Made by a program: the position numbers and the translations under genes. DNA of 54,685 bases from Tepidimonas alkaliphilus (GTDB lineage: Bacteria; Pseudomonadota; Gammaproteobacteria; Burkholderiales; Burkholderiaceae_C): the NCBI RefSeq assembly GCF_007556595.1, contig NZ_VJNB01000013.1:1-54685 (forward strand), in the 5' to 3' direction. Below, piece by piece: positions 36,237 through 53,649 of this stretch; the stretch's first letter is position 1; the number at the start of each line of letters is the position of its first letter. Under the pieces are notes generated by a model that was given only the letters and a program-made list of their open reading frames with translations, ran no database searches and was not told the origin of the DNA.

Positions 36237-36330
36237 GGAGTGATGACCGAGAGGCCGAAGGTGCTCCCCTGCTAAGGGAGTATACGGGCTAAAACCCGTA
36301 TCGAGGGTTCGAATCCCTCTCACTCCGCCA
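36237..36330 (+). tRNA. tRNA-Ser (anticodon GCU)
   Basis: The 94-nt gene folds as a class II tRNA. The acceptor stem GGAGTGA pairs with TCACTCC, and G73 is the serine discriminator. The anticodon stem CTCCC/GGGAG encloses CTGCTAA with anticodon GCT. A long variable arm (ACGGG/CCCGT) is followed by the T-arm GAGGG/CCCTC with loop TTCGAAT. CCA is encoded (36328-36330). It reads AGC/AGU codons. Its 3' end marks the left border of the accessory region, a common integration target. Confidence 0.97.
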
Positions 36331-36370
36331 CGGATGTCTTGTAAGTTGTTGATTTGACTAGAGTTTTTCG

Positions 36371-36418
36371 GCAAACGCAAAAGTTGTTATCACCCCAGTT
36401 ATCACCCCGCGCGTTTGC
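36371..36418. repeat. Tandem GTTATCACCCC repeats inside an inverted repeat, next to tRNA-Ser
   Basis: Two copies of GTTATCACCCC (36386-36396 and 36398-36408) lie head to tail, one base apart. They are flanked by the inverted pair GCAAACGC (36371-36378) and GCGTTTGC (36411-36418). The block starts 41 bp beyond the tRNA CCA end, where arm-type integrase binding sites or an excisionase site would be expected. It is non-coding as far as can be seen. Confidence 0.55.
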
Positions 36419-36485
36419 TGGAAAGCTCTCCTGGCCCCCTCTGAAGCCCTGTCAGGCCATCTCGTTGGCTGGCCCCGAGGGCCCC

Positions 36486-37250: not shown

Positions 37251-38590
37251 AGCTCGATCTCCAGCCAGTCGCTGCCGGTCTGCCGGGCGCTTTCGGCAGG
37301 CGCAGCGGGTAGCGGGCTTGCGTCGAGTGCGTGCGTTGAATCCCCCGTACCCCCTATAGCGCCATTCGACGCATTCGACGCGTCGATTGGCGCGTCGAAG
37401 GAAGGGGTTGCGTCGAATGCGGGATTCGACGAGTTCGACGAATTCGACGCAGCAGGCAACAACACCTCGCGCCGGTTACGCGATGGGGTGGTGATCACGC
37501 GCGTGACCACCTTGCCGCTTGCCAGCAGCCGATCCAGCGCGGCCTCCACCTCCGCGCGCTTGTGCAGCCCGTCCAGCAGTGCGTGCAGCACCTTGCCCGC
37601 CGGGTGCGCGCCCACTCGCGCAGCACGGATCGGCTGCCCGCGCGCCGCAGCCTGCCGGATCGCGTCCAGGACGTTGACGTCAGCGGGCACCGGTGCAGTG
37701 GGCAAGCGGGGCGCATCCGGCAGCGGCACCCCGTGATCGTTGACACGTAGCACCAGCGGCGGCGGCAGGCGTCCGAAGTTCAGCTTTTCCACGCCCAGCG
37801 TCAGCACATCGCCGTCGCGCGTCAGGCTCAGCCGCGCGCGGGCCGAGTTGTGCCAGGCGGTCGAGCCCGAGTAGCTCTCGCGCCCGGTCTTGCGCGCGTC
37901 CTTCGGCGTGTGCGCCAGCAACAGCACCGCGCCATCGCCCTTGACCAGCTCGCGGCGCAGCAGTTGCATGAAAGCCCGCACGTGGCGGCGCGCGTTCTCG
38001 TCTGCCGCAAAGGTGTCGCTAGCGTTGTCAACCACCACCAGCGCGCCGTCCGGGATGCGCTGGCGCAGCGCTGCCACGGCAGCCGCGGGCTCCAGGGTGG
38101 TGACCCCGTCGCGGCGCACCTCCTCAGCCAGCGCCCCGGCCTCGACGCAGTCCAGGATGCGCAGCCGCTGCGCCAGCAGCGCAGGGTCGAAGCCGTAGGC
38201 GTCGCAAATCGCACGTAGGCGGTGCAGCAGCACCTCGCGGCCATCCTCGAAGCTCGCGAACACGGCGGGACGCGGGCGCGGCACGCGCAGGTGCGCCAGA
38301 TCGCGGCCCAGCGCCACGTGGCACGCCAGCACCAGCGCCAGGAAGCTTTTGCCGCAGCCGCCATGCGCCCCCAGCAGCGTGACCTGCCCGCAAGGGATCG
38401 CCCCCTCGACCACGAACGGCGGCGCGGCCACGGGCTGCCGCGCGGCCAGCGGGTCAACCTCGACGATCACGGGCAGCCCTTCGACGGCTTCGCCTTCCAG
38501 CGGCGGCAACAGGGGCTGCAGGTCAACGAAGCGCTCGGCAAACAACCTCAGCACCGCGACCTCAGCAGCGGCAAGGTCAGGCGCACCCAT
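37247..38590 (-). CDS. RepA-like AAA ATPase (replicative helicase type)
   Basis: This 447-residue protein has a RecA-fold NTPase core of the AAA_25/RepA kind. Walker A is GAHGGCGKSF (74-83). VFASFEDGREVLLHRL and the Walker B GALVVVDNASDTF follow, then VLLLAHTPKDA and SGSTAWHNSARARLSL. Relatives are hexameric helicases such as RSF1010 RepA. The C-terminal part resembles a winged-helix region (KVLHALLDGLHKRAEVEAALDRLL) and ends in a low-complexity Asn/Ser/Asp/Ala tail. The ATG at 38590 is chosen because it overlaps the primase stop by 14 nt; a longer reading to 38734 runs inside the primase. Confidence 0.82.
   Translation of the reverse strand: MGAPDLAAAEVAVLRLFAERFVDLQPLLPPLEGEAVEGLPVIVEVDPLAARQPVAAPPFVVEGAIPCGQVTLLGAHGGCGKSFLALVLACHVALGRDLAHLRVPRPRPAVFASFEDGREVLLHRLRAICDAYGFDPALLAQRLRILDCVEAGALAEEVRRDGVTTLEPAAAVAALRQRIPDGALVVVDNASDTFAADENARRHVRAFMQLLRRELVKGDGAVLLLAHTPKDARKTGRESYSGSTAWHNSARARLSLTRDGDVLTLGVEKLNFGRLPPPLVLRVNDHGVPLPDAPRLPTAPVPADVNVLDAIRQAAARGQPIRAARVGAHPAGKVLHALLDGLHKRAEVEAALDRLLASGKVVTRVITTPSRNRREVLLPAASNSSNSSNPAFDATPSFDAPIDASNASNGAIGGTGDSTHALDASPLPAAPAESARQTGSDWLEIEL
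37364..37449. repeat. Cluster of TTCGACG repeats in the ATPase tail
   Basis: Within 86 bp there are five TTCGACG copies in one orientation and two as CGTCGAA, mostly 9-10 bp apart. They code for the NSSNSSN and FDA/SNASN part of the RepA-like tail. They may be simple coding repeats or iteron-like protein-binding sites overlapping the gene. Confidence 0.6.
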
Positions 38591-39431
38591 GGCTTGCCCC
38601 CTTGCGCGCCACATCGGCCACGTCGCCCGCATCGGCGCTTGGCAGCACCACGCGCACATGCACCCCAGCCGCGCGCCAGCGCGCCGCGCAGCGCGCCGCA
38701 GCCTGCAGCCCCGCGCCGTCGGGGTCCGCCGCAATCGTCAGGCGCTTGACGCCAGGCAGCGGTGCCAGCGCAGCCAGATTGCCCGCATCGATCGCCGCCC
38801 AGGCTGGCACAGCAGCCCAAGCCGCAGCCAAGGCGGTCTCGATGCCTTCGGCCAGCGTCAGCGCTTCGGGCGCAGGCTCAGGCCACAGCCGGATCACTCC
38901 GCCTTTTTTGGCGTGTCCGCCCAGCAGCAGGCGCGGCGGGTCGGCTTCAGAGGCCTTCGTGCCATCGGCGCGCACCCAGGTTCGATGCAACGTCAACGGC
39001 TCGCCGCTGCTCAGGTCGGTCACCAGCGCCACGATCGCTGCGCCGCGGTAGCCGGTCACGGGATGGGGCAGGCTGGGGTGGAAGCGCAGGTGACCATCGG
39101 GCGGCGGCAGACGGCAGCCGCGCGCGCTCAGGTAGGCTTCGCCGATGGTTCCGCGCAGCGGCTGGCAGGCGTCCCACAGCGCGCGCCCGTGCTCGCTCAG
39201 GCGTTCGTGACGCACGGGCATCGGCGGCGCAGCAGGCGGCGCAGCGCTGCGGCGCGGGATCGCCCCAGCCCAGCCGCAGCGGTGGCACCTCCAGACCGCG
39301 CGGTCGGGCAGCGCCTCAACCGACAAGGCGGTATCGCGGCGCTTTTGGCTGCCACAGTGCGGGCAGCCGAGGCGGTGGCGGCCCAGCGGCAGGCTCAAAA
39401 GCGCTTCAGCTCTGGCATTCCGGGTCAGCAT
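38577..39431 (-). CDS. Zinc-ribbon Toprim primase-like protein
   Basis: This 284-residue protein probably primes replication of the mobile element. The N-terminal zinc ribbon reads CPHCGSQKRRD and WRCHRCGWAG. The middle has SARGCRLPPPDGHLRFHP and TLHRTWVRADGTKAS, typical of phage/plasmid Toprim primases. The Toprim motif Glu lies in LTLAEGIETALAAA, and the Asp pair in LTIAADPDGAGLQAAARCA. A strong GGGAGGG Shine-Dalgarno precedes the ATG at 39431. It is coupled to the downstream ATPase by a 14-nt overlap and lies 21 bp after the AlpA-like gene. Confidence 0.85.
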   Translation of the reverse strand: MLTRNARAEALLSLPLGRHRLGCPHCGSQKRRDTALSVEALPDRAVWRCHRCGWAGAIPRRSAAPPAAPPMPVRHERLSEHGRALWDACQPLRGTIGEAYLSARGCRLPPPDGHLRFHPSLPHPVTGYRGAAIVALVTDLSSGEPLTLHRTWVRADGTKASEADPPRLLLGGHAKKGGVIRLWPEPAPEALTLAEGIETALAAAWAAVPAWAAIDAGNLAALAPLPGVKRLTIAADPDGAGLQAAARCAARWRAAGVHVRVVLPSADAGDVADVARKGASHGCA

Positions 39432-39452
39432 GATCGTGCCCTCCCGGGGGTG

Positions 39453-39719
39453 TCAGCGCGGCAGCCGATCGAGCCACGCCTGCAGGTCGCTTGCGCGCCA
39501 GCGCACGGCGCGCGCGCCCACGCGCAGCGGGCGCGGGGCCTGGCCCGTGCGCACCAGCTCATACCAGGTCGAGCGCGACAGCCGCACCAGCGCCAGCACG
39601 TCGCGCACCGACAGCAGCCGCTCGCCGCTGCACGGCGCTGCGGCATGGGCCACGGGATGGACCTGCGCCGCAGCGCAGGCTTCAAAGCGGGGCTCGCCCC
39701 CATGACGTCGGACGTTCAT
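39453..39719 (-). CDS. AlpA-family helix-turn-helix regulator
   Basis: This 88-residue protein has a C-terminal MerR-like HTH of the AlpA/excisionase type: LLSVRDVLALVRLSRSTWYELV, RTGQAPRPLRVGARAVRWRA and DLQAWLDRLPR. AlpA proteins regulate or promote excision of islands and phages such as CP4-57. The first 30 residues (His/Ala-rich) are not part of the domain, and a shorter start is possible. However, AGGAG lies 8 bases before this ATG. It is the first gene of the replication operon, directly downstream of the 44-bp repeats. Confidence 0.85.
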   Translation of the reverse strand: MNVRRHGGEPRFEACAAAQVHPVAHAAAPCSGERLLSVRDVLALVRLSRSTWYELVRTGQAPRPLRVGARAVRWRASDLQAWLDRLPR

Positions 39720-39781
39720 CGAAAACTCCTCTCAGCGTTCCGGTTGCGAACACGGCGGGCCCAACAGCCCGCCAGCCAACA

Positions 39782-39889
39782 GAGAACCGCTCGCTGCAGC
39801 GCCTGCCAGCGGTCTCTCGCCGATGGAGAAACGCTCGCTGCAGCGCTTGCCAGCAGCCTCACGCCGATGGAGAAACGCTCGCTGCGGAC
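39782..39889. repeat. 44-bp tandem direct repeats (about 2.4 copies)
   Basis: Units begin GAGAA(C/A)CGCTCGCTGCAGCG at 39782, 39826 and 39870, exactly 44 bp apart. The second is about 80-90 percent like the first and the third is cut short. Because 44 is not a multiple of three, they are not protein repeats. They sit 60-170 bp upstream of the AlpA-like gene and could be iterons or operators. Confidence 0.8.
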
Positions 39890-40102
39890 GCCAGCGCAGG
39901 CACCGACGGGCTCATCAGCCGGGGCTCAGGCGGCACGCGCTTCAAGGAGCAGATGGGGCGATGACGCCCTTGCAGGCCAAAGGGGGCGCTTGCCGCGCGA
40001 ACGCCAAGGCAAGGCAGGGCGCACGACGGCGCGGCAGCGCGCCTTCGGCACCCCATCGATAGCTGCACACTATCCTGTAGAACACAGCGATCGATGTGAT
40101 CT

Positions 40103-40663
40103 TGGCGACACTTGGCGACGGTTGCGGCGACAGGGCAGCGGCCACAGAAGCAAAACTCTCGCTTTGACAGACACTTGGGAGCGAACACCAAGTCAAGGCG
40201 TCGCCAGTCGCCAATGAGGCTGGCGACAGTCATTTCTATCGCAAAAACAATCACTTGGGCTTGCTCAGAGGGGGCTTTTGAGGCGCTGTCGCCAATCTGG
40301 ACTTCGACCGTCGCACCGCCGGCGATGGCACCGCTTGCCCCTCTTGCCGCATGGCTGCGCGCCTCTTTCCAAGCGTCCACGTCGGCAGCCAGCGGTTCAG
40401 TGTCGCCTGCGGTCTTGCCAGCAGGCGGCAGGGCGTGACCAGGCGCCGCGACACTCCAAACCGTGCACATTGGCGACACCCCCGTAAAAGACGGGGTTGG
40501 TCGCTTGCAACACGTTGTTTTATATACGGGTTTGGGGTGTCGCCAACCCACCCCGGCGCTGGGCGACAGGCATCCCGAGGGACTTCGCCAAGATGTTGTT
40601 TTTTCGGGTGTTATGGGTTTTGCCGTGCTGGCAACAAGGGCGGGCTGTCGCCATGTGTCGCCA
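40103..40663. repeat. Iteron-like cluster of TGTCGCCA / TGGCGACA
   Basis: Seven exact copies of the 8-mer occur in both orientations: TGGCGACA at 40103, 40221 and 40471, and TGTCGCCA at 40287, 40538, 40646 and 40656. One-mismatch copies lie at about 40113, 40125, 40199, 40206, 40401, 40561 and 40742. A random 8-mer is expected far less than once in 560 bp. The copies are not at a fixed spacing, so this is a binding-site field rather than a tandem repeat. Confidence 0.78.
40470..40546. repeat. 13-bp perfect inverted repeat around a T/A-rich core
   Basis: The arms TTGGCGACACCCC (40470-40482) and GGGGTGTCGCCAA (40534-40546) include two of the 8-mer sites. The 51-bp centre contains a small hairpin (CCCGTAAAAGACGGG) and TTGTTTTATATACGGG, one of the few T/A-rich stretches in this part. 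This is the sort of layout where an origin melts. Confidence 0.75.
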
Positions 40664-41117
40664 CGATGGTATTGATCGTGCTGCACCTTGCGATCGTGCT
40701 TTCCCATCGCATGAGCAGCGCGGTTGGGATGACGACAGTCCTGGCGACGCTGACGGCGACGCCGGTGACGGCAGAGGTGGCGACCGCGGCCAGGCGACCC
40801 GAGAGAGCGCGTCGGATACCGTATTCAGCGCATTCGGCGCAGCGACACGCCAGCCTTGCCCCTTGCCCGCCACGCGCGCTCAGCGCGCCCCTCATGCCAT
40901 GAGGGAGTCCATGCAGGGTAAGTGGGGGCGCCCCGGTAACCGCACGGGGGGCTTCGAACAGGGGCGGTCGGCAAGCTGTGCTAGGGCACCAGCAGTATCG
41001 ACCTGAGCCGCCTTGCCCGATGCGCAAGCGTGGTCGCGGGGGCGCCGTGGGAGCATCGCGCCTCGATGCTGGCCGTGCCACTGCCATCGGGGACCTGGGG
41101 TCACGCCGCTCCAAAAC

Positions 41118-41144
41118 CAGAAGGGGCAGCATGAGCCCCTTCTG
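41118..41144 (-). terminator. Strong hairpin terminator downstream of the ParA/StbB-like gene
   Basis: CAGAAGGGGC (41118-41127) pairs perfectly with GCCCCTTCTG (41135-41144) over a 7-nt loop. Read on the minus strand, the stem is followed by GTTTTGG. It lies about 120 bp beyond the ATPase stop and would end the stability operon. Confidence 0.6.
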
Positions 41145-41262
41145 TCGCTGTTCAGAGCGCTGCGGCTGCTGCAGGCTGTGGCGGCTTGCCGCGCATCGGA
41201 TCGTTCCCCAGCCCTTCAAGCGCACGGCTGGCCCGCTGCAGCCATCCCGACAGCCGCGCGCG

Positions 41263-41910
41263 CTAAATGAACGTCTCCAGCGCCTGCGGGTGGCCTTTCG
41301 TGCACAGCAGGCTCAGCGGCACGTCGGGTTTTTCCATGACTGCCGAATAGGTGTAGCTTGCCAATTTCGGAAAAATCGCAACCTCCGGACAAATGGTTTT
41401 CAGTCGCTCCACCAAGTTACTGTTGCCGTCGTCCAGGAATTCCTGTGCCAGCAGCATGGTTTTTTCTGCATACGACGCAAGCCCGTTTTTAAATGATTCG
41501 GCGACGGTTGCCATGCCGCTGGGGTTTGATGATGCGGAATAGATGACGCGCAGATCGGCCCCTAGGCCAGATACAGCCTCGCCGAGCGTCTCAACATCAC
41601 GATCGATGGTACCGGTCGCGGTCGCCGGCAGGTTCACCACCGCGACATCGATGCATTCCATGTTGTGCTCGAGATATTCCAGCATCTTGCTGACCGCGTC
41701 CTCATAATGCGTCTGGTCAGCCAGGTTGAATTGAGCTGCTTTTACAACATGCCGGTGATATCGGTTATACACATCATCGATCTTCACGTCGCCTTCAATA
41801 AGCATGACCCGTTTGCGGGCGCCAAAACTCAGCGCGTCCACCAGTACGCTGGCGACCGTGGACTTGCCCACGCCGCCTTTTTCACCGTGGGAGAAGATGA
41901 TTGCTTTCAT
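41263..41910 (-). CDS. ParA/MinD-superfamily ATPase, StbB/TraL-like
   Basis: This 215-residue P-loop ATPase has the deviant Walker A EKGGVGKSTVASVLVDAL (KGGVGKST at 11-18). A Walker A-prime Asp lies in MLIEGDVKIDDVYN, and CIDVAVVNLPATATG is in the Walker B position. The short form without an N-terminal HTH fits type Ib ParA, R388 StbB or RP4 TraL. It ends with PDVPLSLLCTKGHPQALETFI. A strong AGGAG precedes the ATG by 6 nt. Base composition is clearly less GC-rich than the core genes, supporting foreign origin. It is the last gene of an operon whose first gene encodes a DNA-binding protein next to a repeat array, so a role in plasmid/element positioning or transfer is likely. Confidence 0.85.
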   Translation of the reverse strand: MKAIIFSHGEKGGVGKSTVASVLVDALSFGARKRVMLIEGDVKIDDVYNRYHRHVVKAAQFNLADQTHYEDAVSKMLEYLEHNMECIDVAVVNLPATATGTIDRDVETLGEAVSGLGADLRVIYSASSNPSGMATVAESFKNGLASYAEKTMLLAQEFLDDGNSNLVERLKTICPEVAIFPKLASYTYSAVMEKPDVPLSLLCTKGHPQALETFI

Positions 41911-43417: not shown

Positions 43418-44454
43418 TGAGCTCAGACACCTTTGGCACTCCTTCGACGAAGGAGCAAGGCCATGCAGGTTCATCGCATCGGATACGGCATCCGGGGCTT
43501 TGACCGGGTAGCGCACTTGGGGCATCTTTGGGAGATGACCCCCACAAGGATGCCCAACAAAGGCTGCGTATCCTGCATTTCTGGGATCGGCACGGGCTGG
43601 CGGCCACCATCGATGCCTTTGGCGTGTCCGAGCGCACGCTGTATCGCTGGTGCCAAAGGCTGCACCAGGCCGGCGGCAACCCCGCAGCGCTAGCGGCCAA
43701 GTCCTGCCGGCCCCATCAGGTGCGCCAGAGCCACCATGATCCGCGCCTGGTGCACAGAATCCGCCATCTGCGCAGGCTCTACCCCAATCTCGGCTTGGGC
43801 CTTGCCTGCACGCGTTGCTTGAGCCCTGGTGCCGCCAGCATGGCCTGCAGCTGCCGTCGGTCTCCACCATCGGGCGCATCATCGCCTCAGCCGCCCCAAG
43901 CCCGTGCGCCGCCAGCGCAAACCGCGCAAGCCCCGCGGGGCGCGCCCCGCGCCGCTGCAGTGCCTGGCGGTGGACACCGTCGAGCGCGTGCACGATGGCC
44001 TGCGCCGCTCTATCCTGACTTGCATCGATCCAGCCAGCGCCTTCGGCCTGGCCGTGGCCTTGCCCAGCAAGGCCGCCTGCCACACCGAGGCGGCCATGGC
44101 CGCCATCCTGTCGCTGCTGCCCGCCAAACCCAAGGTGGTGCTGTCAGACAACGGCTCCGAGTTCGAAGCCGGCTTTGCCAAGCTGCTCAAGCAGCATGGC
44201 ATCCAGCGCTGCTACACCTACCCCAACTCCCCCAAGATGAAGGCGCACGTCGAGCGCTTCAACCGCACCGTGCAGGAGTCCTTCGTCGACGACCACGAGG
44301 ACCTGCTCTTGACGGATTTGGCCCTCTTCAACCAGAAACTGGCCAACTGGCTCGTCTTCTACAACGCCCAGCGTCCACACCATCGCCTCGGACACAAACC
44401 CCCACTATCATGCCTGCTCCAACACCACCCCGAGTGCCAAAGGTGGTGGACTCA
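43418..44454 (+). mobile_element. Insertion sequence (about 1.04 kb, IS481/IS3-like, decayed)
   Basis: A 14-bp perfect inverted repeat, CACCTTTGGCACTC at 43428-43441 and GAGTGCCAAAGGTG at 44432-44445, frames a DDE transposase pseudogene. The similarity extends outward to TGAG at each end, giving approximate borders 43418 and 44454. No target duplication is visible. It sits between the repeat array and the TonB/CobN module. Confidence 0.75.
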
Positions 44455-44467
44455 TACAAATTATTGA
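43463..44467 (+). pseudogene. Frameshifted DDE transposase (rve integrase core)
   Basis: The protein can be followed only by changing frame three times. MQVHRIGYGIRGFDRVAHLG is frame 1. HKDAQQRLRILHFWDRHG with the HTH AFGVSERTLYRWCQRLHQ is frame 2, the shift near 43530 looking like a lost base. LLEPWCRQHGLQLPSVSTIG is frame 3. Then the catalytic core runs from PVRRQRKPRKPRGARP to the end. The DDE residues are intact (LAVDTVERV, LSDNGSEFEAG, HVERFNRTVQE), followed by NAQRPHHRLGHKPPL. The last shift, near 43890, probably includes a deletion. It is not expected to be active. Confidence 0.8.
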
Positions 44468-44476
44468 CTCCGCCCC
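44460..44476. repeat. 17-bp direct repeat, left copy, flanking the TonB/CobN module
   Basis: ATTATTGACTCCGCCCC here matches ATTATTGACTCTGCCCC at 53633-53649 with one mismatch. Each copy begins within 0-6 bp of an IS edge. The pair brackets the whole module. Confidence 0.65.
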
Positions 44477-44492
44477 TTCCCTTGGCTACAGT
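44464..44492 (+). promoter_or_regulatory. Sigma-70-like promoter for the DUF2946/TonB/CobN operon
   Basis: TTGACT (44464-44469) and TACAGT (44487-44492) are separated by exactly 17 bp and lie just upstream of the start codon at 44501. The -35 falls inside the 17-bp direct repeat next to the IS end. No Fur box or cobalamin riboswitch is seen in the short leader. Confidence 0.5.
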
Positions 44493-44500
44493 TAAGGATC

Positions 44501-44851
44501 ATGCAAAGTCTGCGCAACACCCGCCGACTCGCCCGCCTAGTGCTGGTGTGGTTTGCGCTGACGCTGGGCGCAGCGGTGGTCTCGCCGCTGGTCAAGCCCG
44601 AGGGATTGCATTTGGTGTGCTCGGGCTCCGCGGTCAAGCTGGTGGCAGGCAGCAGCGATGATGACGACGTCCCGATCCCTTCGAAGCTAGATTGCCCTCT
44701 GTGCGGCGGCGGTGCGGTGCCGCTGCTGGCGGTGCCGGATCTGCCTCGGGTCGCGGCGGATACCGCCCGGCCGCAGCATCTGGCGTCCCACGGCCGTACG
44801 GCGTATTGCCGGCCGGTGCTGCCGGCGCGCGGGCCGCCCATCCTCTCCTGA
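44501..44851 (+). CDS. Small exported/membrane CPLC protein (DUF2946-like)
   Basis: This 116-residue protein has an N-terminal hydrophobic segment (RLARLVLVWFALTLGAAVVSPLV) that is a signal or anchor. A mature part with one Cys in HLVCSG, an acidic run DDDD, and the CPLCGGG motif follow. Short proteins with a hydrophobic start and a CPLC pair next to TonB-dependent receptors are typical of DUF2946. A metal-handling or thiol role at the cell envelope is plausible but unproven. The start lies just after a good promoter. It is followed 76 bp later by the receptor gene. Confidence 0.7.
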   Translation: MQSLRNTRRLARLVLVWFALTLGAAVVSPLVKPEGLHLVCSGSAVKLVAGSSDDDDVPIPSKLDCPLCGGGAVPLLAVPDLPRVAADTARPQHLASHGRTAYCRPVLPARGPPILS

Positions 44852-44933
44852 AACCCATCTTTTTCTCCATAGCCGTTCGCCAAGCCCTCTAGCGGCTTGC
44901 GGACGGTGTTGGCCTGTCCTTCAGGAGATGTCC

Positions 44934-47159
44934 GTGCGCCTCTATTGCCCATTGCGTCCGCTGGCTGCCGCCGTGCTGGCCGCTTTTCCGCTGGCTGGCT
45001 GGAGTCAGCCGGACCTTGCCCCTTCACTTCCAGCCAACCAGCCAACGGCCGAACAGGCGCTGGATGAGATCCGCGTCATCGCCGACCCGGTTGCCGACGA
45101 TGTGCCGTCGTTCCACCAGCAGCGCGAGCGCTTTTTGCGCCGGCCCGGCGCCGAAACTGTGGTGGACACCCGCCACTGGCAAGACAAGCGTTTGTCCAAC
45201 TTCGAGGATGCCTTCGCGCTGACACCGGGTATCCACGCCTTCGCCCGCACCGATTCCACCGGGGGGTTGTACTCCATTCGTGGCAGCGACATCGCCACCG
45301 AGGGGCCGCGCAACGGCCGTGGCATCCGCGCCTACCAGGATGGCGTGCCGCTGGGCCGCACGGAGGCGGGCATCACCAATGCCCTGATGGACATGCTGGC
45401 GGCCGACTACGTGGAGGTCTACCGCGGCCCCAACAGCCTGCGCTTTGGCGCGCTGGCCACGGGCGGCGCGCTCAACTTTGTCTCCCGCACCGGCCGCAGC
45501 TTCGAGGGTCACGGCCTGCGCGCGACGGTCGGCTCCTATGGTTATCGTCAGGTGCAATACGAGTATGGCTTCGGTGCCGAGCGTGACGATGTCTATGTTT
45601 CAGTCAGCAGCAGCCGCAGCGACGGCTACCGCCGGCACGACGTGTCCGAGTACTTCCGCGTCACCGGCAACTGGGGCCGCGACCTGGGCGGCGGCTTGAA
45701 CAACCGGCTGTACCTGCACCTGGGTCGCACCCGCGACGAGACGTCCAGCACCCTGCCGTTGGCCACCTACTGGCGCGACCCGCGCAACCCGGGCCAGTAC
45801 GCGGTGGAATTCGATCTGGATGCGAACTTTGAATACGCGCGGCTGGCCAACCGCCTCGTGCAGCGGCTGGACAACCGCCGCCGCATCGAGGCCGATGCTT
45901 ACCTGATTTGGATTCGCTTCGACCATCTGCCGTCGCCGTTCACTGGCATCGTGGACCGCACCTGGCGGGAGCATGGGCTGGGTGTGCGCTACAGCGGCCT
46001 GCACGACTTGGGTGGTCTTGAGGCGGAGCTGGTCGGCGGCCTGCGCTACAACGGCTCGCACGGCGACTTTTTCAACTGGCAGCACCGCAACAACGGCCAG
46101 GACAAAGGACCCAAGACCATGGAGGCGGATTTCCGCAGTCGGCTCATTGAGGCCCACGGCGAGCTGGCGCTGCGGCTGCGGTCCGATTTGCGTGCCTTCT
46201 TTGGCCTGCAGCTGGCCCGGGGCCAGCGCGACTATGCCGAAAAGCCCGTCCCACCGGTGCCGGCTTGCGGCCCGGTCGTCGGCACGCCACCGCCGTTTTG
46301 CCAGGCCCTGGGCAATCAGCGCCCGCAGCCTGGCAGCGCGGCCAGCCCGGCCAGTCGGAGCACCGACTTCGACACCGTCAACCCCAAGCTGGGCATCAAC
46401 TGGGAGTTCAGCCCGCGCTGGTTCGCCTTCGGCTCCATCGCCCGCAGCTTCGAGGCGCCGACCGACTCGGACGTGGCCAACGCCGCTGGCGTCGGGCGCA
46501 GGGTGGACCCTCAGCGAGCCTGGACCATCGAGGGCGGCGTGCGTGGCGGGGATGAGGTGCTGTCGGCCGACGTGACGCTCTACCACATGCGCATCCGCGG
46601 CGAGATCCTCTCGGAATGCCGGCCGGGTATTCCCAACTGTGCGCAGAACGTCGCCTTCAATGCGGATCGGACCATTCACAACGGCATCGAGGCCGGCTTC
46701 GGTGCGCGACTTGCCCGAGGGCTGTTGGCCGACGGCGACAGCCTGCGCATCGACGGGGTGTGGAACTGGACCGACATGCGCTTCGATGGCGACCGCCGCT
46801 ACGGCAACAACCGGCTGCCGGTGATCCCGCGCCACACGCTGCATGTGGAGCTGACGCACCGGCTACCCACTGGCTGGCACTGGGGTCTCAACGCCCATCA
46901 TGTGGGTAGCCGCACCGCCACTTATGATGGTTCCGGCGGCGCCGCGTTCGTGGTGCCGGGCTACACGCTGTGGGGCCTGCGGCTGGGCTACGCGCCCAAG
47001 GGGGCGAACTGGCGCGTGGCGCTGGATGCGAAGAACCTGGCCGACAAGGCCTATGTCGCGCAGTTCACACCGGTACCGACGGCCGGCACCCGCAGCAGCC
47101 CGGACATCAGGCCTGGCGTGGGCCGAGCGCTGTACCTGAGCTTGAGCGCCAGCTTCTGA
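44934..47159 (+). CDS. TonB-dependent outer-membrane receptor (HmuR-like context)
   Basis: The receptor has about 741 residues. A signal peptide (LAAAVLAAFPLAGWSQ) is followed by LDEIRVIADP, a likely TonB box, then the plug domain (NFEDAFALTPGIHAFARTD, YSIRGSDIA, YVEVYRGPNSLRFGALATGGALNFVSRTG). The 22-strand barrel runs to the last residue Phe (SLSASF), as usual. AGGAG abuts the ATG at 44928, which leaves no spacing; the GTG at 44934 is 6 nt away and is the better start. TonB receptors import bound metal complexes such as heme, cobalamin or siderophores. The substrate is not readable here, but the downstream chelatase points to a metal tetrapyrrole. A Cys-containing external loop (CGPVVGTPPPFCQ) is notable. 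Confidence 0.92.
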   Translation: MRLYCPLRPLAAAVLAAFPLAGWSQPDLAPSLPANQPTAEQALDEIRVIADPVADDVPSFHQQRERFLRRPGAETVVDTRHWQDKRLSNFEDAFALTPGIHAFARTDSTGGLYSIRGSDIATEGPRNGRGIRAYQDGVPLGRTEAGITNALMDMLAADYVEVYRGPNSLRFGALATGGALNFVSRTGRSFEGHGLRATVGSYGYRQVQYEYGFGAERDDVYVSVSSSRSDGYRRHDVSEYFRVTGNWGRDLGGGLNNRLYLHLGRTRDETSSTLPLATYWRDPRNPGQYAVEFDLDANFEYARLANRLVQRLDNRRRIEADAYLIWIRFDHLPSPFTGIVDRTWREHGLGVRYSGLHDLGGLEAELVGGLRYNGSHGDFFNWQHRNNGQDKGPKTMEADFRSRLIEAHGELALRLRSDLRAFFGLQLARGQRDYAEKPVPPVPACGPVVGTPPPFCQALGNQRPQPGSAASPASRSTDFDTVNPKLGINWEFSPRWFAFGSIARSFEAPTDSDVANAAGVGRRVDPQRAWTIEGGVRGGDEVLSADVTLYHMRIRGEILSECRPGIPNCAQNVAFNADRTIHNGIEAGFGARLARGLLADGDSLRIDGVWNWTDMRFDGDRRYGNNRLPVIPRHTLHVELTHRLPTGWHWGLNAHHVGSRTATYDGSGGAAFVVPGYTLWGLRLGYAPKGANWRVALDAKNLADKAYVAQFTPVPTAGTRSSPDIRPGVGRALYLSLSASF

Positions 47160-47176
47160 CCGCCAAGGGGGGCATC

Positions 47177-50100
47177 ATGTCGCCTCACCGTCACCCTTCG
47201 CGGCGCGCCGGTCAGGCCAGCCTACTCGGCTGCGGGCTGCTGTCGGCCTTGCTGGCGCTGCTGGCTGTACTGGTGATGTTGCTGGTACCGGCCGCTGGCG
47301 TGGCTGCGACGTCGCCAGCGGTCGGCAAGGTGGCCATCCTGTCCACCAGCTTTGTGCTGGAGCGCAAGTTCACGCTGATGGAACAGGCCGCGCGCGGCCA
47401 GGGCGTCGAGCTCGACTGGGTGCAGGTGGACCGGGCCGAAGCCGCCCGCATCGCCCGCGCGCTGGACGGGGCGCGGCTGGTGATCCTGGATGCACCGCGG
47501 CAGGAAGACCAGGCGCAGGTCGAGCGCGCTGCCGGCGAAGCGCTGCGCCGCACCGGCATCCGCGGCGTGTCCATCAACGTGATGAGCCCGCCAGTACGGC
47601 TGCGGCCGCTGGGCCTGGCACGCGAGCAGGCCCAGCGCATTTACGACTACTACACGCTGGGCATGCCGGTCAACCGCGAACGGCTGTTCGCCTACCTGGC
47701 CGATCTGATGCGCGGTGGCGATGGCGCGGCCGTGCCGGCGCCGCAGACCCTGCCGGACGGCGGCATCTACCACCCGGCGCACCGGGAGCTGGTGCATGAG
47801 GACCTGCCGGGCTATCTGGCTTGGTGGTCGCAGGCGCGGGGACAGGACTGGCGTGGCCGACCGGTGATCGGTATCGAGATGTCCTCCTCGTACATTTCGG
47901 ATGCGCAGACCCGGCTGATCGATACGCTGATCGAGGACATCGAGCGCCGCGGCGGCGTGCCGCTGGCCTTCTACCGCAACCTGCGCGGTACTGCCCCGTC
48001 CGGCAGCAGCGGCTCACCCGCTTCCGGCGGATCGGCTGCTTCTTCCGACGGCCCACAGGCGGGGGGTGGGGCTGCGGCCACGAGCGGGTCGGCTTGGCCG
48101 CGTGGCGGCGGCGATGCCACCTCCCGTGATGGGGCCTCTTTCGCCGCGCCCACATCGGGCCCGTGGGCCATGGGGGCTTCCGATCGCGCCCCTGGTGGCG
48201 CAACGCCTGACGGCACTGGCATGCCGCTGGCGCAGATACTGCGCGACCCTCTGGCCACCGAATCCTTCCCCAATCCGCGCGAACGCGCCGCACCGCCGCC
48301 GGAGCCGCTGATCACGCTGCAGGGACGCACCCTGCCCAACGTGCTGCTGGTCTACACCTTCCTCGGGATGGACCCGGACGGCCGACGCGCCTGGCTGCAG
48401 TCGCTGGACATTCCGGCCGTCAACTTGCTGGTCTATCGCACCGGCTCCATCGCCGACTACCGTCGCGACCTCGCGGGCGTGCCGACCTTCTTCGTGCCCT
48501 TCAACCTGACCACGGCGGAATACATCGGCTTGATCGACCCGGTGGTGGTCGGCGCCAACGAGGGCGGCGAGATCGTGCCCATACCTGAGCAGGTGGACCT
48601 GCTGCTGGGCAAGGCCTTCAACCTGGTGCGGCTTCAGACCACCCCCAATGCCGAAAAGCGGCTGGCGCTGTTCTTCTGGAACCACCCGCCGGGGCAGAAC
48701 AACCAGGGGGCTTCCAACCTGAACGTGCCGCGCTCCATCGAACGGCTGACGGCCCGGCTGCGCGAGGCAGGCTACCGGGTCGAGCCGGCGCAGGAGTCGG
48801 CCATCATCGCCGCCGTGCGGCAGATGCAGGAGCCGGCCTACCGGCGCGGCACGCTGGCGCGGCTGATGCAGACGCCGCACTGGGACTTCCTGCCGCTCGC
48901 GCGGTACCGCGCCTACTTCGACGGTCTGCCGGCCGATGTGCGCCAGCGCATCACGGACTTCTGGGGCGCGCCGGAGAAAAGTCCCTGGTTCACCCGGGTG
49001 GGCGGTCAGCCGGGCTTCGTCGTGCCGCGGCTGCAGCTGGGGCAGCTGGTGGTCCTGCCGCAACCGTGGCGGGGCGAAACCGCCTGGGGTGCCCATGACG
49101 AAAAGAAAAGCTTTCACGACACCAAGATGCCGCTGTCGCACCACTACATCGCGGTTTACCTGTGGGCGCGCGAGCAGTTCGGCGCGCATGCCATCGTGCA
49201 CCTCGGCACCCACGGCACCCAGGAATGGACGCCGGGCAAGGAGCGCGGGCTGTGGGCTTGGGACGACCCCAACCTGTTGGTGCGCAACACCCCGGTGGTC
49301 TACCCCTACATCGTCGACAACATCGGCGAGGCGTTGCATGTCAAGCGTCGTGGCCGTGGTGTCATCGTCAGCCACCAGACCCCGCCGTTCACCCCTGCCG
49401 GGCTGTCCGAGGATTTCGTGCGGTTGGCAGATCTGGTGCGCGAATACGAGGCCGCCGACGAGGGGCTGGTGCGCGAGGGCAGCCGCAAGCTCATCATCGA
49501 GCAGGCGGTGCGCATGAATGTGCACCGGGATCTGAAATGGAAGCTGGCCGAGGTCGAGCGCGATTTCGACCGCCATCTGCGCGAATTGCAGGACTGGCTG
49601 GAATCGCTGGGTGAGGCGCAGCAGCCGCTGGGCCTGCACACCCTGGGCGAGACCGCGCCGCGCGAGCACCTGGTCGTCAACGTGATGCAGATGCTGGGCG
49701 AGCCGCTGTACCGCGCCACCGGTGTGACCAACCCGCGCAAGGCTTTCGCGGTGGACTTCCGGCAGCTGCGGCAGCTGGCGCCGTACCGCTTCGTCGACGA
49801 ATGGGTGTTCTCCGGCCGGCCGCTGGCCGAGCTGGCCGACCCGACCCTGCGCGCGCTGGCCGAACGTGGCCGGCGTTTCGCCGCCGACCTGCGCGCGGAG
49901 CAGGAAACCGAGGCCGTGCTGCGCGCGCTGGCGGCCCGCTGGGTGATGCCGTCCTACGGCGGTGACCCTATCCGTAACCCTGACGCGCTACCTACCGGGC
50001 GTAATGTGTACGGCTTTGATCCGTCGCGGGTGCCTACTCGCTCGGCCTACGAGGCTGGGAAGAAGGCGTTGGATGCGCTAATCACAGAATATAGGGTCAA

Positions 50101-51568
50101 GACTGGTCAGCCACCAACCAAGCTGGCTTTCACGATGTGGAGCACTGAGACATTGCGCCACTTGGGCATCCTGGAGGCGCAGGCACTTTATGCCTTGGGG
50201 GTACGCCCACGCTGGGACGCCGGCGGACGCGTAATCGGTATGGAGGTTATACCGATTACGGAACTGGGCCGCCCACGCATCGACGTCGTGATCTCAATGA
50301 CCGGCCTTTGGCGTGACCAGTTTCCTAATGTGATGGAGCGTTTAAACGAAGCCATCGCACTGGTGGAAGCGCTACCGGAGGAGGCTGTGGTCAACCCTGT
50401 GCGGGCCAACACCGCACGCGTCGAGCAGGCCCTGCGCGCCCGCGGCATCCCTGCGGCCGAGGCGAGGGAGTTTGCGCTCACGCGACTGTTCGGCAACGAA
50501 TCGGGCGACTACGGCACCGGCTTGCCTGAGGCCACGCTGGCTTCGGACCAGTGGAACGAGGGCGACGGCCGGCTGGAAAACCTATACCTGGCCCGCATGT
50601 CCTGGGGCTACGGGCCCAACCAGGCGAACTGGAGCCGCAAGCTGCGCGACGCCGCCGGTCAAGAGGTCAACGTCTATGCCGAGCATCTGCGCGGTACCAG
50701 CGCCGCGGTGTTTTCGCGCTCATCCAACCTGCGTGGGCTGCTGGACACCGACCATCCGTTCGAATACCTGGGCGGCATCTCGCTGGCGGTGCGGCATCTG
50801 GACGGCAAGAGCCCCCAGCTGTTCATCAGCAACCTGCGGGACCCCAACCGCGCGCGGCTGCAGGGTGCCGACAACTTCCTGGCCATGGAACTGCGCAGCG
50901 TCTACCACCATCCGAACTGGGTCCGGGAGATGCAGGCAGAGGGCTACAGCGGCGCTCAGCAGCTGCTCAACATCGTCAACAACTTTTGGGGTTGGCAGGT
51001 CATGGACCGCAGCGTCGTGCGCAACGACCAGTGGCAGGACTTCAAAGCCATCTATGTCGATGACCGATACAAGCTCGGCTTGCGGGCTTGGTTCGAGAAG
51101 CATCACCCAGCGGCTCTGGCCCAGATCACCGAACGTATGCTCGAGGCTATCCGCAAGGGTTACTGGCAGGCCGACGAGGCGACTCAGCGTGACCTCGCCC
51201 GAACTTGGCTCGACATCGCGCGCCGGCACGACGTGCAGACGCTCAACGAAACCTTCAAGGCCTATGTGGCCGAGCTGACCGGCGGCGGTTTCGGGCTGGG
51301 TGCGGCGCTGGCCCGGCCGGCCGAAGCCCGCCCCGCGGCGGCCGCGCAGCCGGCGCGGGCCGACGATGTACCGCCACCGGCGCCGCAGCCCCCCGTTGTG
51401 CGCGGTCAGCAGCTGGTGGAGCAGCCGCGCAGCCCCGAGGCCGTGCAGCGCTTGATCTGGACTTACGCGCTGCTAATGCTGGCGGTGCTGGCCGCTGGGG
51501 CCGTCTGGCAGGCTTGGCTGGCCCGACACACCCGGCAGCGCCGCCCCGCCATGACGACGCAGCCGTAA
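47177..51568 (+). CDS. Membrane-anchored CobN/BchH-type metal chelatase (HmuS-like)
   Basis: This is a 1463-residue member of the CobN/magnesium-chelatase H family, which inserts or removes metals in tetrapyrroles. An N-terminal hydrophobic signal lies at about 14-43. The conserved core includes YTFLGMDPDGRRAWLQ, LFFWNHPPGQNNQGASNL, and HLGTHGTQEWTPGKERGLW with His679 and Glu683 in the metal/porphyrin-site motif. The C-terminus has one membrane helix (about 1425-1448) and a basic tail. This topology places the catalytic part outside the cytosol, unlike B12-pathway CobN. No CobS/CobT are nearby. Residues 272-350 are a Gly/Ser/Pro/Ala insertion. The gene order matches hmuS of Bacteroidetes, implicated in taking iron from heme; cobalt or another metal remains possible. 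Confidence 0.9.
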   Translation: MSPHRHPSRRAGQASLLGCGLLSALLALLAVLVMLLVPAAGVAATSPAVGKVAILSTSFVLERKFTLMEQAARGQGVELDWVQVDRAEAARIARALDGARLVILDAPRQEDQAQVERAAGEALRRTGIRGVSINVMSPPVRLRPLGLAREQAQRIYDYYTLGMPVNRERLFAYLADLMRGGDGAAVPAPQTLPDGGIYHPAHRELVHEDLPGYLAWWSQARGQDWRGRPVIGIEMSSSYISDAQTRLIDTLIEDIERRGGVPLAFYRNLRGTAPSGSSGSPASGGSAASSDGPQAGGGAAATSGSAWPRGGGDATSRDGASFAAPTSGPWAMGASDRAPGGATPDGTGMPLAQILRDPLATESFPNPRERAAPPPEPLITLQGRTLPNVLLVYTFLGMDPDGRRAWLQSLDIPAVNLLVYRTGSIADYRRDLAGVPTFFVPFNLTTAEYIGLIDPVVVGANEGGEIVPIPEQVDLLLGKAFNLVRLQTTPNAEKRLALFFWNHPPGQNNQGASNLNVPRSIERLTARLREAGYRVEPAQESAIIAAVRQMQEPAYRRGTLARLMQTPHWDFLPLARYRAYFDGLPADVRQRITDFWGAPEKSPWFTRVGGQPGFVVPRLQLGQLVVLPQPWRGETAWGAHDEKKSFHDTKMPLSHHYIAVYLWAREQFGAHAIVHLGTHGTQEWTPGKERGLWAWDDPNLLVRNTPVVYPYIVDNIGEALHVKRRGRGVIVSHQTPPFTPAGLSEDFVRLADLVREYEAADEGLVREGSRKLIIEQAVRMNVHRDLKWKLAEVERDFDRHLRELQDWLESLGEAQQPLGLHTLGETAPREHLVVNVMQMLGEPLYRATGVTNPRKAFAVDFRQLRQLAPYRFVDEWVFSGRPLAELADPTLRALAERGRRFAADLRAEQETEAVLRALAARWVMPSYGGDPIRNPDALPTGRNVYGFDPSRVPTRSAYEAGKKALDALITEYRVKTGQPPTKLAFTMWSTETLRHLGILEAQALYALGVRPRWDAGGRVIGMEVIPITELGRPRIDVVISMTGLWRDQFPNVMERLNEAIALVEALPEEAVVNPVRANTARVEQALRARGIPAAEAREFALTRLFGNESGDYGTGLPEATLASDQWNEGDGRLENLYLARMSWGYGPNQANWSRKLRDAAGQEVNVYAEHLRGTSAAVFSRSSNLRGLLDTDHPFEYLGGISLAVRHLDGKSPQLFISNLRDPNRARLQGADNFLAMELRSVYHHPNWVREMQAEGYSGAQQLLNIVNNFWGWQVMDRSVVRNDQWQDFKAIYVDDRYKLGLRAWFEKHHPAALAQITERMLEAIRKGYWQADEATQRDLARTWLDIARRHDVQTLNETFKAYVAELTGGGFGLGAALARPAEARPAAAAQPARADDVPPPAPQPPVVRGQQLVEQPRSPEAVQRLIWTYALLMLAVLAAGAVWQAWLARHTRQRRPAMTTQP

Positions 51569-51602
51569 TCTTCCCTGTACCTCCAACCGGAGCGCCTTCG
51601 GC

Positions 51603-52142
51603 ATGAACGCCATCGAAACCCTGCTGTACGAGATCTCCAAGTTCTTTCTGACCCCGGTGCTGCTGCTACTGGTGGCCATGTTCGCCTACGCACTGTTCGC
51701 GCTGGGTCAGCTGCTGGTGGAGGCGGCACTGCGCACCCGGCGGCCGCACGGCTCGGCGCCGCTGCATGGCTGGCGGGCGCGCCATCCGCAGGCCGGCGTG
51801 GACGCGCTGGAGCTGCATGTGCTGCGCCAGCTCGAATGGCAGCGTATCACCAGCCGCGTAGCACCCATGCTGGGGCTGGTGGCCACGATGATCCCGATGG
51901 GGCCGGCGCTGGTGGCCGTGGCCCAGGGCAACACCCAAGGCATGGCACAGAACCTGGTAGTGGCCTTCTCCGCGGTGATCATCGCGCTGCTGGCTGCGGC
52001 CATGACCTTCGTGGTGCAGAACCTGCGCCGGCGTTGGTTACTGGAGGAGCTCAACGCCATCTTGGCCGCCAGCGCGTCCGACCACGACCCGCTGGCGGCA
52101 CGCGCCGCGCAGCACACCGGGGCCGGGGTGTCCCATGGCTGA
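51603..52142 (+). CDS. MotA/TolQ/ExbB-family proton channel protein (HmuU-like)
   Basis: This 179-residue inner-membrane protein has three helices (about 15-38, 85-107 and 116-140). The last two carry the family pattern TSRVAPMLGLVATMIPMGPAL and NLVVAFSAVIIALLAAAMTFVVQ. It is shorter than ExbB and TolQ (about 230-240). The protein likely forms a pentameric stator using the proton gradient with the next gene product. It starts 34 bp after the chelatase, with GGAG 11 nt upstream of the ATG. Its end overlaps the DUF2149 gene by 8 bp, so the two are coupled. Confidence 0.88.
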   Translation: MNAIETLLYEISKFFLTPVLLLLVAMFAYALFALGQLLVEAALRTRRPHGSAPLHGWRARHPQAGVDALELHVLRQLEWQRITSRVAPMLGLVATMIPMGPALVAVAQGNTQGMAQNLVVAFSAVIIALLAAAMTFVVQNLRRRWLLEELNAILAASASDHDPLAARAAQHTGAGVSHG

Positions 52143-52464
52143 GCCTCGCCGCATGGGCATCGACATCTTGGCCGATGCCGAGGACGACGACCCCATCCTG
52201 TCGGTGGTCAACATTGTCGACGTGTTCCTTGTGGTCATCGCGGTGCTGCTGATTGCCATTGCCGAAAACCCCATCAACCCCTTCGTCACGCACAACGCCG
52301 TAGTCATCAAGAACCCGGGCGAAGCCAACATGGAGCTGGTGGTGAAGAAAGGCAACGAACTGCGCCAGTACAAAGCCAGCGGCCAGATCGGCGAAGGTGA
52401 AGGCGCCAAAGCCGGCACTGCCTACCGGCTCAAGGACGGCACTTTGATCTACGTTCCCGAATGA
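52135..52464 (+). CDS. DUF2149 protein, ExbD-like partner (HmuV-like)
   Basis: This 109-residue protein has a short acidic N-terminus (DILADAEDDDP), one membrane helix at about 21-43 and a C-terminal periplasmic domain (VTHNAVVIKNPGEANMELVV ... GTAYRLKDGTLIYVPE). The helix starts NIVDVFLVV, with Asp29 where ExbD and TolR have their single proton-carrying Asp (FIDVMLVLL in E. coli ExbD). Topology, size and position directly after an ExbB-like gene support an ExbD role. DUF2149 is usually found beside CobN-like genes. It is the last gene of the module; an IS30 element begins 30 bp beyond its stop. Confidence 0.88.
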   Translation: MAEPRRMGIDILADAEDDDPILSVVNIVDVFLVVIAVLLIAIAENPINPFVTHNAVVIKNPGEANMELVVKKGNELRQYKASGQIGEGEGAKAGTAYRLKDGTLIYVPE

Positions 52465-52494
52465 ATCCAATGAGTCGCCGGCGGTGTCAAGCAC

Positions 52495-53632
52495 CAAGTG
52501 CAACAGTGGAATCACTGAAGGGAGTGGCTGGCTTGGGTGAGCTTTTCCAGCATGGCCTGATCGACGGCGATCGGGGGGTAGAAGCCGTGGATGGCGCGGG
52601 GTCGATTGTTGAGCCTGTCGGCGATCGCATCGAGTTCCTCCTGGCTGCAGACCGACAGGTCCGTGCCCTTGGGCAGGACCTGGCGCAGCAGGCCGTTGAT
52701 GTTCGGATGAAACCGCAAGCGGTTTTCGCAACTGCCCCGCTGCCACGGACTGCGCGGGTCGCAGAAGTCGACGCGGATGCCGGTGGCCTCGGTCAGCTCG
52801 GGATGACGCGCCATTTCCTTGCCGCGGTCGTAGGTCAGGGTCTTGCGCATCGGCTTGGGCATCTTGCGCGGCTTGGCCGTGAAGTCCTCCAGGGCCGAGG
52901 CCGCTGTGGCGTCCTTGAGCTTGGGGCTGCACACCAGACGCGAGCTACGCTCGACCAACACCCCAACGGCCGAGCGGTTGGCCGCCCCCTTGAGCAGGTC
53001 GCCTTCCCAGTGCCCGGGGAACGCCCGCTCGTTGGCTTCGGGCGGACGCAGGTGGATGCTGACCGCCTCGGGCAGCTGGCCCCTTCGGTCTTGGCCACGC
53101 GAGCACGGCATGCGCTTGCTTTGCGCACGCCTCAGGCTGGCGATGATTTCCTTGCGCAGCTCACCGCGCGGCATCGCATCGATGCCGTTGTCGATGGTCT
53201 CGTGCGAGACGCGGCGATCCAGATCGTCGGGCCCCATGCGCCTCAAGTGTGCCGGCCATCTGCCCTGGCGACCAGCCCTCCAGCAGGAAGTGATGCACCA
53301 CGCCGAAGAGCACGCCGTCTTCGGAGAGCTTACGGCTGCGTCGGCGCTTCAGGCGCATCGCGCATGCACGCGCGCCGGCCGCGCGCGCGTCATAAGTGCT
53401 GCTGCCCGCCGGCACGAAGGCCAAGCGCTGCGGCCAGTCCAGCGCGCGCCGGATCTCGCGCGTCACCGTCGAAGGCAAGCGCTGCAGCGTGCGGGCCATG
53501 CTGCGTGCCGAGCAGCCCTGCTGCAGCAGGATCATGATGGTGGCGCGCGCTGTAGCGCTCAGGTGCTGGTAGTGGGTTCCCATAAAGCGGCGGCAGGGTC
53601 AGGTGCAAGGCAGATCAGGGGTGTTGCACTTG
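52495..53632 (-). mobile_element. IS30-family insertion sequence (about 1.14 kb), inactive
   Basis: Perfect 11-bp inverted ends CAAGTGCAACA (52495-52505) and TGTTGCACTTG (53622-53632) enclose one IS30-type transposase pseudogene on the minus strand. The size fits the family. No target duplication is evident. It separates the ExbD-like gene from an IS5-type fragment. Confidence 0.8.
52512..53583 (-). pseudogene. IS30-family transposase with a frameshift and an insertion
   Basis: The N-terminal part (53583 to about 53246) begins MGTHYQHLSATARATIMILL. It has HTH motifs ARTLQRLPSTVTREIRR and GWSPGQMAGTL, then goes out of frame. The rest (53246-52512) resumes at RMGPDDLDRRVSHETI and holds PGHWEGDLLKG, LTYDRGKEMARHPELTE and FCDPRSPWQRGSCEN. 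The shift fits one extra G near 53246. Directly after the catalytic Glu in CEN there are seven extra residues compared with the usual CENTNGLLRQ, coded by a 21-nt insert that forms a 7-bp hairpin (52710-52725). The enzyme is expected to be dead. Confidence 0.82.
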
Positions 53633-53649
53633 ATTATTGACTCTGCCCC
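53633..53649. repeat. 17-bp direct repeat, right copy
   Basis: ATTATTGACTCTGCCCC matches the copy at 44460-44476 with one difference. It directly follows the IS30 right end and precedes the IS5-type fragment. Confidence 0.65.

Follow-up and report, generated by a model that had tools for sequence, protein, structure and literature searches.

An anchored CobN-type chelatase with a TonB-dependent receptor, an ExbB-DUF2149 pair and a CruR-like leading gene in Tepidimonas alkaliphilus: a possible copper de-chelation operon

Which metal is handled, and what powers its handling, is the question raised by five co-directional genes at 44501-52464 of a 54,685-nucleotide stretch of Tepidimonas alkaliphilus DNA (contig NZ_VJNB01000013.1; the whole stretch analysed is referred to here as the window). 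In order, they encode a CruR-like protein, a TonB-dependent receptor, an exported CobN-type protein, a member of the MotA/TolQ/ExbB family and a DUF2149 protein, all on one strand and with open frames, as an earlier sequence-only reading had described; the betaproteobacterial origin assigned in that reading is consistent with a tree of CobN proteins, which puts the window among Burkholderiales rows. It can be hypothesized, tentatively, that these genes form a copper-starvation operon, which would import a copper chelate and de-chelate it in the periplasm. The features of the module are the following.

44501..44851, + strand: gene 1, putative CruR-like copper-responsive upstream regulator (DUF2946 type), 116 amino acids (weak Pfam match, custom profile and motifs)
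44852..44927, + strand: gap of 76 bases from gene 1 to the receptor gene, compared with the CruR locus of Bordetella pertussis (PMC9426467)
44928..47159, + strand: TonB-dependent receptor, 743 amino acids (Pfam PF07715, PF00593)
47177..51568, + strand: exported, C-terminally anchored CobN-type protein, 1463 amino acids (PF02514; anchors by hydropathy)
49211..49213, + strand: codon of His679, equivalent of HmuS His538 (alignment)
50753..50764, + strand: codons of His1193 and Glu1196, equivalents of HmuS His1209 and Glu1212 (alignment)
51603..52142, + strand: MotA/TolQ/ExbB-family protein, 179 amino acids (PF01618, 26.2 bits)
52135..52464, + strand: DUF2149 protein with a single membrane helix, 109 amino acids (PF09919, 95.9 bits)
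52219-52221, + strand: codon of Asp29 of the DUF2149 protein (alignment column)

The start codons of the receptor and CobN genes were read from the sequence (ATG at 44928 and at 47177). The receptor matches the Plug and barrel families with 48.5 and 129.9 bits, the chelatase matches CobN-Mg_chel (PF02514) with 940.5 bits, and the score of the ExbB-family protein stands above the MotA_ExbB cut-off of 22.9 bits.

The preference for copper comes primarily from gene 1, whose product had been labelled simply a CPLC protein, a label that missed its likeness to CruR; with a CruR-like first gene, copper is more likely than heme iron. According to the available text of PMC9426467, CruR (DUF2946) of B. 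pertussis is an upstream open reading frame whose product senses copper through a CXXC motif and stalls at a C-terminal RAPP, the control being exerted in the gap between cruR and the receptor gene, and its homologues head operons with genes for TonB receptors, PepSY_TM, PCuAC, Sco and MbnPH. The gene 1 protein begins with a hydrophobic segment, fitting the export signal of CruR, carries CPLC at residues 65-68 and RGPP at residues 110-113, followed by three residues, and scores 44.8 bits (E 7.7e-16) against a profile built from related DUF2946 genes; RGPP is found in several of these as well. The genome has two other DUF2946 genes, one of which heads SCO1 and PCuAC.

The recurrence of this arrangement was followed in 61 related loci (designated L plus a number) retrieved by a single scan in which short peptides of the window served as queries, which makes them a non-random sample of fairly close relatives; 41 of them extend 4.5 kb or more 5' of CobN. 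Nearly all belong to Pseudomonadota, one to a Campylobacterota bin, and 12 come, by record title, from methanotrophs or Nitrosomonas, organisms with a high copper demand. Based on profiles built from these loci and iterated, as were those used for the additional TonB, ExbB and ExbD genes mentioned below, a DUF2946 gene lies 5' of CobN in 15 of the 61, in 13 of them within 5 kb and in two (L040, L046) only 7-9 kb away. The motif pair with its spacing is missing from two of the 15 (L048, L050), and three more loci have DUF2946 genes downstream of CobN. Pfam searches of 112 of the 178 listed neighbouring frames detected ExbD in 11, TonB_C in 14 and DUF2946 in 10. The CobN tree comprises 61 rows (50 of the 61 loci, with frames above 1150 amino acids, and 11 other proteins); as this quick tree has long branches, only the clade of the window is used. 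It contains 16 rows, 13 with an upstream DUF2946 gene (the window and 12 of its 15 neighbours), and among the unlabelled rows are two whose contigs begin inside CobN (L016) and inside the receptor gene (L019). In the relative of highest identity (L017, 81%), genes for MbnP and a MauG-type diheme protein, a copper-linked MbnP-MbnH set, stand right after DUF2149. Altogether, the upstream DUF2946 genes, the MbnP-MauG neighbours and the genomic DUF2946-SCO1-PCuAC cluster argue for copper.

Several observations weigh in the opposite direction. The 41 residues between CPLC and RGPP are slightly fewer than the 42-49 found in relatives, the Pfam DUF2946 model (PF11162) gives gene 1 only 18.3 bits, below its cut-off of 23.7, and when the whole genome was searched with it, the two other genes were found but gene 1 was not. 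In the sister row of the window (L059) a CobW-type GTPase stands where CruR would be. MbnPH was not found in the genome or the window by a family search that also matched in no control. Identification of the receptor as a CrtA copper receptor is not favoured: it matches CrtA (9rvq) with 46.8 bits only, behind YncD/PqqU (62.8 and 62.6 bits), all of these solved relatives being distant. Finally, the same core is found in zinc, nickel, cobalt and iron contexts, so its metal can switch.

The chelatase provides the second line of evidence. The export and C-terminal anchoring ascribed to it earlier were recovered by computation: the N-terminal hydrophobic segment reaches a Kyte-Doolittle value of 2.92 and the C-terminal one, followed by basic residues, 2.03, the second CobN of the genome scoring 0.39 and 0.16 at its termini and having neither segment. 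The C-terminal segment passes a threshold of 1.6 in 41 of the 54 complete-ended relatives and lies at 1.04-1.57 in the other 13 (loci cut at the 3' end, L030, L043 and L057 are excluded from this count). The nearest solved structure is HmuS (9d26, 443.4 bits vs 332.1 for CobN 9uk9), and HmuS also ranks first with a predicted model of the CobN body (predicted local distance difference test, pLDDT, 72.7), for which only the ranking is used because the domain arrangement is unreliable (root-mean-square deviation about 20 A, template modelling score 0.40 to HmuS). A Ser/Gly/Ala-rich insertion of variable length among relatives occupies CobN residues 272-345 (window 47990-48209) and is missing from HmuS and canonical CobN rows.

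His538 is essential in HmuS according to the available text of PMC12583661, and His679 in HLGTHG of the window chelatase matches it in HxGTHG; since this histidine is conserved across the whole superfamily, it is a weak test of HmuS membership. The stretch LDTDHPFEYLGG contains His1193 and Glu1196, the equivalents of His1209 and Glu1212, in a motif that differs overall from the LSLDHxxEFMGG of HmuS, and Ser1199 of HmuS is kept as well. Among the CobN frames of the related loci (67 found, 56 scored, the other 11 being fragments or broken frames without the motif) 53 carry the H..E pair and three have D..Q in its place (L049, L055, L063). The likeness to HmuS proposed in the sequence-only reading is thus well founded as to the closest relative and these residues, but several hallmarks do not extend to the window. 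Besides His1209/Glu1212 and Ser1199, the conserved features given for HmuS in the part of PMC12583661 at hand are Met79, His254, a Met-rich insert, Gln1198 and Trp1202. The Met79 and His254 columns hold Pro and Leu in the window (B. theta numbering, in a weak N-terminal alignment), Gln1198 and Trp1202 are replaced by Ser and Arg, and the Met-rich insert is absent: no 60 residues of the window protein hold more than 3 Met, compared with 18 for the HmuS of Prevotella and 7 for that of B. finegoldii. By these conserved residues the window chelatase is not an HmuS, although at its active site it may work like one.

These results bear directly on the best surviving alternative, heme iron acquisition by a proteobacterial HmuRSUV whose receptor would import heme and whose CobN-like protein would release the iron. 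It is favoured by the rank of HmuS among solved relatives, by the three shared catalytic residues and by the occurrence of the same core with HmuY in Bacteroidota (Prevotella, Bacteroides, Aureibacter) and in L049. Consensus patterns of Fur, Zur and NikR boxes were scanned for in 61 upstream stretches of at most 400 bases (59 loci and two window stretches). A 19-base Fur pattern was found 3 times vs 0.7 expected, all in L049 and L055, so that L049 combines HmuY with a Fur-like box, and a looser 15-base pattern 20 times vs 11.2 expected, L063 among them. However, the loci with HmuY or Fur-like boxes (L049, L055, L063) are those carrying D..Q instead of H..E, and the window operon has neither HmuY nor, in the stretches scanned, a Fur-like, Zur-like or NikR-like box. 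Considering also the missing hallmarks and the CruR-like first gene, the heme explanation appears rather unlikely.

Next comes a form of the module dedicated to zinc, cobalt or nickel, in which the receptor would import a chelate of that metal. Mutation of znuA raises PA1922-PA1925 of Pseudomonas aeruginosa by 45- to 147-fold (PMC4542158), and Zur binds the PA1922 promoter (PMC8531726). NikR is encoded near the Azospirillum copy of the core, cobalamin genes surround the Trichlorobacter copy, and in Runella the genes for receptor, ExbB, DUF2149 and CobN are located between hypABF and hypCDE on a plasmid (L083:4656-18914), which suggests nickel supply for hydrogenase; the CobW-type GTPase of the sister row may be added. 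The upstream regulatory sites weigh against it: Zur-like boxes numbered 0 vs 1.55 expected (at most three mismatches) and NikR-like sites 5 vs 6.45 expected, not above chance, so Zur and NikR control were both set aside. Cobalamin riboswitch control was likewise discarded, none being present in the window or 5' of the operon in the 13 loci scanned out of 61; the one of L030 (L030:18747-18973) lies downstream on the other strand. With a CruR-like gene in first position, the zinc, cobalt or nickel version is unlikely for this operon.

For the copper operon that we favour, the following course of events can be envisaged. At low copper the nascent CruR-like peptide would stall and the operon would be read through, and copper bound at the CXXC motif would relieve the stall and switch the operon off. 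Through the receptor a chelate of copper (a tetrapyrrole complex, perhaps) would reach the periplasm, where the anchored CobN-type protein would grip it between His679 and His1193 and take the metal out, in a reversal of the CobN/ChlH reaction as in HmuS. CobNST and ChlHID use AAA+ partners. Next to the anchor, ExbB-DUF2149 would act as a proton-driven motor to load, strain or clear the chelatase and would replace the AAA+ motor that serves CobN and ChlH in the cytosol. As to the ligand, the receptor of L033 is by far the nearest to that of the window (688 bits, the next 83) and in this locus CobN is followed by a CpeT plus lipocalin protein. CpeT/CpcT proteins handle linear tetrapyrroles; this neighbourhood agrees with a tetrapyrrole-like ligand and is no proof of it.

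The client of the motor is the other half of the question. ExbB-like and DUF2149 genes both accompany CobN in 55 of the 61 loci, an association that exceeds chance; five of the remaining six loci end at most 59 bases from CobN, and L015, with no full pair over 3.4 kb beside CobN, is a true exception. A complete additional TonB-ExbB-ExbD set was detected in 25 loci, 22 of which also have the ExbB-DUF2149 pair, the contigs of the other three ending before its position, and a Trichlorobacter plasmid holds both sets. Given the separate TonB-ExbB-ExbD set in many such operons, ExbB-DUF2149 may act on the chelatase. The dedicated proton channel recognised in the sequence-only reading probably exists in the operon, but the system that it powers may be the chelatase and not the receptor. 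ExbB adjoins DUF2149 in all of the 13 DUF2149 loci of the family, CobN being nearby in 10, one lying at a contig edge and the remaining two (L091, L092, described below) giving no CobN match. Both families also match in Methanosarcina acetivorans, an archaeon without an outer membrane, and PMC9425974 lists a link between DUF2149 and TolQ in methanogens. Like ExbD, DUF2149 has one membrane helix with an Asp; this Asp29 is invariant in 43/43 relatives, with Glu in Runella. Based on this evidence, the client of the ExbB-DUF2149 motor may be the anchored chelatase and not TonB.

This assignment has evidence against it as well. Purified HmuS converts heme to protoporphyrin IX without HmuU or HmuV (PMC12583661), so a motor is not needed for the HmuS chemistry. 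The HmuS authors themselves regard the ExbB-like protein and DUF2149 as partners of the receptor. The profile match between DUF2149 and ExbD is weak (probability 29.7) and the structure model of DUF2149 is poor (pLDDT 64.7), with no fold match at E 0.001; from sequence and model, DUF2149 is not securely ExbD-like.

ExbB-DUF2149 pairs also occur without CobN in L091 (8827-10513) and L092 (8576-10466), beside a Sel1-repeat protein (by Pfam in L091 only) that in L091 is exported and has a C-terminal hydrophobic segment and in L092 looks alike by eye; genes for a histidine kinase and a response regulator, named by eye, are also present. CobN, ExbD and TonB were unmatched by single-sequence queries within about 8 kb of these DUF2149 genes. 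The Sel1-repeat protein is a possible second client of the motor.

The surroundings of the module contain several mobile sequences and a promoter-like site.

43829..44467, + strand: IS481-type transposase frame (insertion sequence, IS) at the left border (NF033577, 112.2 bits, below its cut-off)
44464..44492, + strand: promoter-like site TTGACT-17-TACAGT just 5' of gene 1 (consensus match only)
52480-52505 and 53622-53647: inverted repeat arms at the right-hand IS30
52512..53246, - strand: IS30-family transposase at the right border (NF033563, 215.1 bits)

A partial IS5-type frame is also found on the right side, and the promoter-like pattern was counted twice vs 0.1 expected. The 17-base stretch ATTATTGACTC(C/T)GCCCC flanks the module with one difference (window 44460-44476 and 53633-53649). 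The genome holds four exact copies of its 14-base core, which resembles the end of an IS that provides the promoter-like site with its -35-like box. Further upstream, at 36237-41910 of the window, come a tRNA-Ser gene and then minus-strand genes for Toprim/DUF7146 primase-like, AAA_25 and ParA-like proteins, a region that resembles an integrated element, with the module just beyond. DUF2149 was detected in 13 of 60 sampled genomes of the family and in 4 of 150 of the phylum, that of T. alkaliphilus included in both cases, and was absent from the sole genome of the genus sampled (n=1). This patchy distribution fits genes that move.

A module decayed or stranded among insertion sequences, owing its expression to the chance presence of an IS-derived promoter and irrelevant to metal uptake, could be read from these borders, from the repeat beside the promoter-like site, from the patchy distribution, from the divergent CruR and from the lack of MbnPH, of which no remnant was found in the window; with five open frames and the catalytic residues kept, it is very unlikely. 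Copies with particular features exist elsewhere. Nitrosomonas europaea ATCC 25978 has two (L004, L030), the CobN frame of L030 being broken in three, and in two Methylococcaceae loci (L018:4644-9794, L044:981-5987) genes 5' of CobN encode 2-hydroxyglutaryl-CoA dehydratase-type proteins, activator-like ATPases and iron-sulfur membrane, DsbD-like and DUF4198-like proteins (some named by eye), which may represent an electron supply.

As a second cobaltochelatase subunit for B12 synthesis, the meaning of its NCBIfam name (cobaltochelatase subunit CobN, NF004644, 1654.8 bits, cut-off 1248), the protein can be dismissed as highly improbable, being exported and anchored, with the canonical CobN of the genome in a cob cluster on another contig (neighbour genes named by eye) and no AAA/VWA partner, sought as relatives of those of the cob cluster, in the window. 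The earlier case against a classical cobaltochelatase is in line with these data; its argument from B12-synthesis genes holds for the window, where none was seen among the translations looked through, but not for the genome, which has the cob cluster. Among the 61 loci, the partner search gave one AAA match only, about 8 kb away in L017.

A broader proposal, possible though doubtful, is that of a class of proton-motive-force-driven de-chelatases in which, in the ATP-free periplasm, the AAA+ motor would have been exchanged for ExbB and DUF2149, the metal (Cu, Fe, Zn, Ni or Co) depending on receptor and regulator; the operon described here would then represent the copper member of the class, controlled by a nascent-peptide copper switch. 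Beyond the anchored clusters of the HmuS paper, most CobN-like sequences are given no function there, and published work describes the role of PA1922-PA1925 as undetermined. A copper sensor heading such an operon names a testable metal, and two distinct ExbB-type motors in one operon make the proton-driven powering of a chelatase testable. No statement that a proton-driven motor family, or the ExbB-DUF2149 pair in particular, powers a chelatase was found in the parts of the literature available; the available text of the P. gingivalis HmuS paper remarks that HmuT, HmuU and HmuV may affect activity, so the thought of a motor acting on the chelatase is not wholly new. A link between a CruR-type copper regulator and a CobN-type chelatase was not found in print, CobN and chelatases being unmentioned in the main texts of PMC9426467 and PMC12914433, and CruR and CobN occurring together in none of the 12 papers listed of 310.

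In outline the module is known, as PA1922-PA1925 and hmuRSTUV are already in print. The hmuYRSTUV operon of Bacteroidota (HmuS: PDB 9D26, 9P4S) shares with the window the receptor, an exported CobN-like protein, an ExbB-like protein and DUF2149, and HmuS shares with the window chelatase the terminal membrane segments, His538 and His1209/Glu1212; unlike hmuYRSTUV, the window has no HmuY or HmuT and begins with a CruR-like gene. PA1922-PA1925 of P. aeruginosa, set beside the window by its description in the available text, likewise joins a TonB receptor, a CobN-like protein, a proton-channel-family protein (called ExbD there) and DUF2149 in one operon, but it is Zur-regulated and no CruR is mentioned in that text. 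The cruR-crtA(bfrG)-bp2921 operon of B. pertussis resembles the window in that a gene of the DUF2946/CruR type comes first and one for a TonB receptor second, and differs in that the receptor is distant (the 46.8-bit match) and a PepSY_TM protein takes the place of CobN-ExbB-DUF2149. With the CobNST cobaltochelatase and the ChlHID magnesium chelatase the window protein has in common the large-subunit fold and the GTHG motif; in contrast to both, it is exported, anchored and encoded beside a putative proton-channel pair.

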